A stretch of DNA of 24,869 bases from a virus. Below are positions 12,135 to 14,022 of the stretch, piece by piece. The notes under the pieces were generated by a model. It ran no database searches. It was given only the letters and a program-made list of their open reading frames with translations, and was not told the DNA's origin. Numbering within the stretch: position 1 is the first letter of the stretch; each line of letters begins with the position of its first letter. The position numbers and the translations under genes were made by a program. The DNA lies in IMG/VR virus record IMGVR_UViG_3300001213_000203, positions 1 through 24,869 of that record; one strand, written 5' to 3'.

Positions 12135-13391
12135 TCATCTCACAGCCCCTTTCATATTCCGTGTCAGATCAAAGTTAACTCGGGTCTGTTGTTCAGCGAC
12201 AGATCGACCTGTTGAATTCGCATCAGCTGCGCCCGTGACATTGATTTGGGTCTGTTGACTGACATTCACATTGGTTTGTTTTTGATTTGAGATATTGGTC
12301 CCAAGTGGAGCCGGTCGGACCAAGGGTTGAACATTGGACATTTGAGATCCAACCTGATTCTGATCATTTCCACCAAAGAGCGACTTTAGACGTTCTCCCA
12401 CTGTGGCCCCAACGGTTGCTGCAACGCCAACGAGTCCTTTGAAGACTTCCCAGACCTCGCCAAAGACCTTTAGTAGATCCTTTCCAGCTGCAATCAGTGA
12501 ATCAAAGGCCCCGGACCAATCAGTTTTGAAAAGCTTTGAGAAGATATCCCAGACATCTTTTGCGACTTTTCCAAGACCCATCAAAACGTCGAAGACTGAA
12601 CCCATCAGTTTTTTCACAGCCTCAATAGCTGGAAGCATCGGGGTCCAGTCAAACAGGCTTTTCCCGCCTTCTTTGAAGGTCATAAAATCATCGTAAAGGG
12701 CAAGGATTGCGAGAAGTCCCGTCAAAAGCATTCCAAGTGGAGTCGCAAGGAAAGCCAGATTCAAAAGCTTCCACGCGGCAATCACCCCGATAATGACGGT
12801 CGACCATCCGTCAGTGGCCTTGTGAAGCTGATAAAAGAAGTCGTAAACCCTTTGAAGTATGCTCCAAACTCGAGTCCCCAAAATAACTGTCGCTTCAAAT
12901 GCCTTGAAAATGAATTTGATGAACTTCTCGAGCATTGACTGAATTCTAGGCATCGAGGCATATAATTTGCCTCTAAATATATCCATTTGTTTGGTGAGCA
13001 TGGGAAGGAACCTAGATCCCACCGATTTATAAATGGCTTCGAAGGCGAATTTTGTTTTCGCGAGCGACATATTGAACTTGATGGATTCGACGACGACTTG
13101 TCGGAGATTAATTCCGGCGGCTCGATAGGCCTTCAAAAGTTCGTTCCGAAGGACAATGGCCTTGTTTATTGCCGGGGCAATGATTCGATATTCATAACCC
13201 ATCTGTTCAAAGCCTTCGGAGATCTTTGAGATCGACCAAAAAACTCCGGCGGCGGTCGCTTTGATTGAGGCATAAAGAGCCACAATTCGAACTGAGGCAC
13301 TTGTGACGGCTTTATTGAATTTAGAGAGGGAAGCATCATCGACATCAAAGCCGAGACCGACCATAAAAGCTTTGAGTATTTCCCCCGTCAT
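12135..13391 (-). CDS. Tail tape measure protein (short)
   Basis: A 418-residue, mostly helical protein with long amphipathic helices, a strongly hydrophobic segment (about 196-232) that fits the membrane-inserting part of tape measures, and a glycine/asparagine/glutamine-rich C-terminal tail. It follows the frameshifted chaperone pair, the usual arrangement. At the usual 1.5 angstrom per residue it would specify a tail near 60 nm, which is short for a contractile tail. It starts by ATGA overlap with the extended chaperone frame. Confidence 0.85.
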   Translation of the reverse strand: MTGEILKAFMVGLGFDVDDASLSKFNKAVTSASVRIVALYASIKATAAGVFWSISKISEGFEQMGYEYRIIAPAINKAIVLRNELLKAYRAAGINLRQVVVESIKFNMSLAKTKFAFEAIYKSVGSRFLPMLTKQMDIFRGKLYASMPRIQSMLEKFIKFIFKAFEATVILGTRVWSILQRVYDFFYQLHKATDGWSTVIIGVIAAWKLLNLAFLATPLGMLLTGLLAILALYDDFMTFKEGGKSLFDWTPMLPAIEAVKKLMGSVFDVLMGLGKVAKDVWDIFSKLFKTDWSGAFDSLIAAGKDLLKVFGEVWEVFKGLVGVAATVGATVGERLKSLFGGNDQNQVGSQMSNVQPLVRPAPLGTNISNQKQTNVNVSQQTQINVTGAADANSTGRSVAEQQTRVNFDLTRNMKGAVR

Positions 13392-14022
13392 TTCTCATTC
13401 GCCTTTCGATATTGTTCCTCGTTGTAATACTTTACCTCGAGGGCATCATTCATTCTTGCAATATCTTCGAGGTCTAGAGAACAATCTTTTAGGCTTTCGT
13501 ACTTGCAGAGGCCTTCCAGGACTGGCCGTAAGATCCAGTCTTCACCATGAGGCATCGAGGCAAAATTGCCTTCCACTCCCGCGCTTACGACTTTTGCGGG
13601 AGTGCGCTGAAAAAACCCTGCAGGTTGTACATAAAAGCCCTCCCCGCGCACTGAAGCATTGTCGCAAGATCGAGATCCTGAAACATGAGATTTCCATTCG
13701 AGACAAGTCTTGCCCAATTCCCAAACTCAGCCTGCTTCATTTCCACAGCTTCCAGAAGTCCCATCAAAACTTTATCCGAGTCCTCATCTGAAAGCTTTGA
13801 AATCCCGGTAATCACAGGACTCAAGAATTTGGCCAATTGGTCAAACTTCTCCTCCTCAGAATTGGACTTTTTCTTCTTTTGAACTTTTGAGATTTCGGCC
13901 ATGGCGGGGATTAGTTCAGCAAGTATCGGAGCCATTCGTCGAACCAAATGAAACTGTTTGAAGGCATCGATCTTCATCAATTTGAAAGATCGATTGCCTA
14001 TCTTGAACTCATTCTCCGCCAT
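13388..14022 (-). CDS. Tail assembly chaperone, frameshifted long form (GT-like)
   Basis: The long product arises by -1 slippage at 13609-13615. Reading 14022 to 13609, then re-reading base 13609 as the first base of the next codon and continuing to 13388, gives 211 residues: the 138 residues ending LQGFF plus 73 starting QRTPAKVVSAGVEGNF and ending YNEEQYRKANEK. The second frame has no start codon with a ribosome site of its own at a sensible place, and it joins the tape measure gene by ATGA. By analogy with lambda G/GT and the P2 E/E+E' pair, the extension should recruit tail tube subunits while the N-terminal part binds the tape measure protein. Confidence 0.8.
13574..13615 (-). promoter_or_regulatory. 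Programmed -1 ribosomal frameshift site with hairpin
   Basis: The slippery heptamer TTTTTTC (minus strand, 13615 to 13609) is in the required X-XXY-YYZ phase, read as GGT TTT TTC in frame zero. Four bases later begins a perfect 9-bp hairpin, CACTCCCGC paired with GCGGGAGTG (13604-13596 and 13582-13574), with a 13-base loop containing the zero-frame stop. Slippage puts Gln (CAG) after the second Phe and joins the two chaperone frames without a gap. Confidence 0.85.
13585..14022 (-). CDS. Tail assembly chaperone, short form (G-like)
   Basis: A 145-residue, helical protein with a charged segment VQKKKKSNSEEEKFDQLAKFL. The start is supported by AGGAGG five bases upstream of the ATG. Its stop at 13585-13587 lies within the loop of the hairpin following the slippery site. 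Directly after the tube gene and before the tape measure, this is the standard place of tail chaperones, which are absent from the mature virion. The short form is expected in excess over the frameshift product. Confidence 0.82.
   Translation of the reverse strand: MAENEFKIGNRSFKLMKIDAFKQFHLVRRMAPILAELIPAMAEISKVQKKKKSNSEEEKFDQLAKFLSPVITGISKLSDEDSDKVLMGLLEAVEMKQAEFGNWARLVSNGNLMFQDLDLATMLQCAGRAFMYNLQGFFSALPQKS

Follow-up and report, generated by a model that had tools for sequence, protein, structure and literature searches.

The frameshift that produces the lambda tail assembly chaperones gpG and gpGT, together with many phage relatives, was reportedly described by Xu, Hendrix, and Duda in 2004. 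The lambda slip site is G_GGA_AAG. The G/GT frameshift is widely conserved among long-tailed phages (PMC5009743), and the window analysed here, which is the whole 24,869-nt virus record IMGVR_UViG_3300001213_000203 (positions 1 to 24,869), is a further case of a mechanism that numerous phages are known to use. It differs from lambda in its slip site (T_TTT_TTC / G_GGT_TTT), in its protein families (Phage_TAC_15 and DUF6889), and in the presence of a clear stem downstream of the slip. Klebsiella phage Mulock (MN098327) and Burkholderia phage Magia (NC_070954) carry the homologous gene pair with the same -1 relation and gene order as the window, and their records already contain a joined tape measure chaperone frameshift CDS (annotation context in PMC7883833). 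Their slips are GGGAAATTTTTTG and CCCTTTT, and their zero-frame stop lies 45 nt past the slip, whereas the distance in the window is only 21 nt. The -1 cassettes of E. coli dnaX and the IS3 family resemble the window in having a slippery heptamer with an RNA structure a few nucleotides downstream, but dnaX uses A_AAA_AAG with an upstream Shine-Dalgarno stimulator, of which no counterpart was seen 6-17 nt upstream in the window, and the dnaX and IS3 products are a polymerase subunit and a transposase, while that of the window is a chaperone.

From the frames, the slip site, the stem, its covariation, the conservation, and the gene order, we infer slippage, its rate, and the roles of the products, and on this basis the cassette almost certainly serves -1 programmed ribosomal frameshifting of the type seen in lambda G/GT, here in a phage with a contractile tail. 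The features are collected in Table 1. The minus strand carries all late genes around the frameshift site, and family matches of the neighbours included sheath, a KPP10_Orf10-type structural protein, and tape measure. The zero frame matched Phage_TAC_15 PF21822 (E=1.4e-20) and the tail assembly chaperone family phrog_1688 (E=4.3e-29), and the -1 frame matched PF21829 DUF6889 (E=6.8e-15) and phrog_4364. The -1 frame overlaps the chaperone frame out of frame and sits directly before the tape measure gene, whose ATG overlaps the -1-frame TGA in ATGA (13391-13388). Among 166 relatives, the tape measure start most commonly lay 4, 8, or 11 bases before the -1-frame end (46, 32, and 23 relatives), so that it is mainly shifted ribosomes that would reach this start directly. 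Elsewhere on this phage record, a gene at 1558-2355 of the window was found to carry UDP-glucose/GDP-mannose dehydrogenase domains (PF00984, E 2.7e-12; PF03721, E 1.1e-10).

Table 1 Features of the putative frameshift cassette in the window
Feature	Position	Strand	Remarks
Zero-frame tail assembly chaperone ORF, G-like	13585..14022	-	145 aa; coordinates include the stop; Phage_TAC_15, phrog_1688
Slippery heptamer G_GGT_TTT, in phase	13612..13618	-	3 nt upstream of T_TTT_TTC and overlapping it; spacer of 7 nt to stem
Slippery heptamer T_TTT_TTC	13609..13615	-	In phase with the 145-aa frame
5' arm of predicted stimulatory stem, CACTCCCGC	13596..13604	-	
Loop of 13 nt	13583..13595	-	Holds the zero-frame stop
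Zero-frame stop UAA	13585..13587	-	Inside the loop, 21 nt past the heptamer
3' arm of predicted stimulatory stem, GCGGGAGTG	13574..13582	-	
-1-frame extension, T-like, DUF6889	13388..13609	-	73 aa from shift site; stop TGA 13390-13388; PF21829
Tape measure protein gene	12135..13391	-	phrog_2276 tape measure, E=8.8e-25

An earlier note on this DNA had described a TTTTTTC in correct phase, which is present in the window, and had missed a second heptamer: the slippery run is GGGTTTTTTC, in which G_GGT_TTT and T_TTT_TTC overlap, both in phase. A computed -1 shift at T_TTT_TTC joined Phage_TAC_15 to DUF6889 in a 211-aa protein with the junction LQGFF-QRTPAK, which reproduced the protein given in the note, and a -1 shift on either heptamer gives the same peptide. 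About 0.011 in-phase TTTTTTC would be expected by chance in the 139-nt overlap. The nearest relative, L068, retains G_GGT_TTT only, and a literature search for overlapping tandem slippery sites gave no specific phage precedent. Heptamers of the U_UUU_UUN type are weaker than those of the A_AAA_AAG type, in a ranking that comes from E. coli, which may not be the host of this phage (PMC4066793, PMC5009743).

The perfect 9-bp stem and the 4-base spacer of the earlier note were both recovered, and folding of CACTCCCGC with GCGGGAGTG gave -17.3 kcal/mol. A stem of at least 9 bp at that distance appeared in 1.4% of dinucleotide shuffles. The spacer from T_TTT_TTC to the stem is AGCG, and its 4 nt, which the note called shorter than the usual 5-9 bases, fall within the 2-9 nt (mode 6) of the relatives with strong stems. 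According to a review, spacers of 5-9 nt have been the focus of many studies and known spacers are more varied (PMC5009743). Because the spacer is 7 nt if counted from G_GGT_TTT, and because of the range in relatives, the short spacer may be no real anomaly. The proposed sharing of one structure by termination and frameshifting, with the stop in the hairpin loop, corresponds to an arrangement visible in the sequence. A Shine-Dalgarno stimulator, which is optional and follows a distance rule of 6-17 nt before the slip (PMC4066793), was not seen at that distance in the window. A strong Shine-Dalgarno-like GGGGAGGG does lie about 20 nt before the heptamers and, within the region 13630-13645, is followed by an in-frame ATG 17 nt upstream of T_TTT_TTC, where an internal start would yield a peptide of 15 aa or, after the shift, a protein of 81 aa. 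This arrangement is similar in L004, L068, and L139, and the ATG is missing in L058, L110, L080, and L113.

Viral contigs, species genomes, and annotated phages were scanned for relatives, which gave 215 loci with both domains, some contigs being taken twice. The profile search placed the DUF6889 frame at -1 relative to the chaperone in 214 of the 215 loci and never at +1, and in a single locus the two domains shared one frame. A chaperone frameshift of the Mu type, which is -2, was ruled out, since the window and 214/215 loci have a -1 relation and +1/-2 occurs nowhere. The one locus with both domains in a single frame, L204 (2500-3200), has no slip site and an N at the junction; a genuine fusion and an error of assembly are both possible. 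The junctions comprise 170 distinct sequences, of which 149 have an in-phase heptamer of canonical type, and the other 21, mostly of the type GCCTTTTAT, retained an in-phase TTT after T. In nearly all of the 170, the in-phase T_TTT occupies one and the same site. The slip types include TTTTTTT, TTTTTTC, GGGAAATTTTTTG, CCCTTTT, AAATTTT, and GGGTTTT. Three in-phase heptamers (GGGAAAT, AAATTTT, TTTTTTG) overlap in the GGGAAATTTTTTG of L039, L043, L046-L049, L052, L054, and L056, which are phages of other hosts, mostly enterobacteria. The slip Phe codon was TTT in 159/159 junctions scored with Phe there, compared with 49% TTT elsewhere in the same frames, a count that omits L148, which has TTC, and is partly circular because the slip was located by its TTT.

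The stem was followed in the closest relatives of the window (L068, L004, L058, L139, L064, L076, L066, L110, L005, L057, and L080), which have 6-11 bp starting 2-7 nt after the slip. Compensatory changes occurred at several pairs of the stem in this clade (A-U to G-C or U-A, U-A to C-G, G-C to U-A or C-G). Pairs were counted with a stem-anchored script, because the MAFFT junction alignment misplaced the 3' arms owing to different loop lengths. This analysis showed that 91 of 96 cells over eight pairs were paired in the window clade, versus 79.0 ± 2.6 with the 3' arms exchanged, and 0 of 5000 reached the observed value; the figure is somewhat generous, because the register was picked per sequence for maximal pairing. 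Protein coding also constrains part of the 5' arm. Single stems of the clade were mostly unlikely by shuffling, L139 and L076 being the exceptions. The comparison of related phages that the earlier note had proposed thus gave a conserved slip and, in the window's clade, a covarying stem. No simple stem of at least 5 bp was found at the expected place in one large subgroup (L081, L083, L087, L089, and others), despite its slip site. In L081, L083, L087, L089, L092, L106, and L114, T_TTT_TTC is followed by a conserved CTCCCCTCGGATTTGAAAGAAG-like stretch with no simple stem. Most members of the window's clade have the stop within the loop, as do the groups L041/L073/L118 and L125/L152/L160. Among the 68 strong stems of the whole family, the stop falls within the loop in 22, past the hairpin in 36, and inside the stem in 10, and stop-in-loop is a recurrent, non-defining arrangement in the family.

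The same reading frames could be explained if DUF6889 were a separate gene with its own start (the ATG of SMPHGEDW near 13550, or reinitiation after the UAA) and the heptamer and hairpin were incidental. The window does have an in-frame ATG downstream of the zero-frame stop, and several GenBank records annotate a short separate DUF6889 CDS, but an ATG with a Shine-Dalgarno core was found between slip and domain in 0/166 junctions, and 89 of the 166 lack any start codon (ATG, GTG, or TTG) in that interval. In addition, many relatives have Leu at the hydrophobic position of the candidate Met of SMPHGEDW, the -1 frame conserves RTP-like residues upstream of this Met, and all but one of the 215 loci share the fixed -1 relation. 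We consider a separate gene very improbable, and independent translation of DUF6889 is judged unlikely from the start-codon counts and the Leu at the candidate Met in many relatives. Relatives that lack the heptamer and keep an independent start, which the earlier note had named as the refuting case, were looked for and did not turn up among the relatives.

The -1 product could also arise if RNA polymerase slipped on the T6 run and inserted one U, which gives the same frame as ribosomal slippage. The run is present, but six T are short for this, as programmed transcriptional realignment is cited for T runs longer than 8 (PMC3711429), the CCCTTTT, GGGAAAT, and GCCTTTT of relatives have no such run, and a covarying stem at ribosome-entrance distance suits translation; transcriptional slippage is an extremely remote explanation. 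Both this and independent initiation were rejected on the evidence of start codons, slip types, and stem. The -1 frameshift joining tail chaperones that the earlier note had proposed is supported by the family matches, the frames of the relatives, the slip site, the covarying stem, and the lack of usable starts.

In the predicted model of the chaperone (mean pLDDT 86.6), the C-terminal helix closes at the shift site. The extension is predicted to start with about 20 residues of low confidence and no regular structure, followed by a helical part. These predictions suggest that the stem-forming nucleotides encode a linker, and they may therefore be freer to keep an RNA structure. The TAC model gave fold matches to predicted tail assembly chaperones of viruses and phages. 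A profile search with either domain found no sequence relative among solved structures, and Foldseek gave no significant match in the PDB. The structure alignments were built from the window and from the viral-contig and genome loci only.

Under the frameshift reading, most ribosomes would translate the 145-aa chaperone and terminate at the UAA in the hairpin loop. A ribosome positioned at GGT-TTT-TTC would meet, at its mRNA entrance, a stem that resists unwinding, and a minority of ribosomes would slip back one base, so that the tRNAs leave GGT/TTT or TTT/TTC and pair again with GGG/TTT or TTT/TTT. The slipped ribosomes would continue for 73 codons through DUF6889 and make a small proportion of the 211-aa fusion. 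If the two products act like those of lambda, the short form would coat the tape measure protein and the fusion would recruit the tail tube subunit.

Besides a real frameshift, the stop in the loop could be regulatory, in that a ribosome terminating there keeps the hairpin from closing and lowers the frameshifting of the next one. Almost all members of the window's clade, and at least two other lineages, have the stop within the loop, but in the family's strong hairpins it mostly lies after the hairpin (36/68) or in the stem (10/68) rather than in the loop (22/68), and a short dual-coding overlap accounts for its position without regulation, so we regard such regulation as improbable. We would likewise give little credence to the idea that the loop retains the stop in this clade so as to set termination against frameshifting on a single RNA element, with ATGA giving shifted ribosomes alone a direct passage into the tape measure gene.

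If the stop in the loop were such a regulatory device, the frameshift ratio would be tuned to ribosome density, and if it were also coupled through ATGA, the shift would govern both the chaperone ratio and the synthesis of the tape measure protein. For the family, the relatives make a strong comparative case that Pfam DUF6889 is a frameshift-only C-terminal extension of Phage_TAC_15 chaperones, many records of which annotate the short form alone or two separate genes. The family has one homologous shift site with many different slippery sequences, which could be used for studying the evolution of slip sites.
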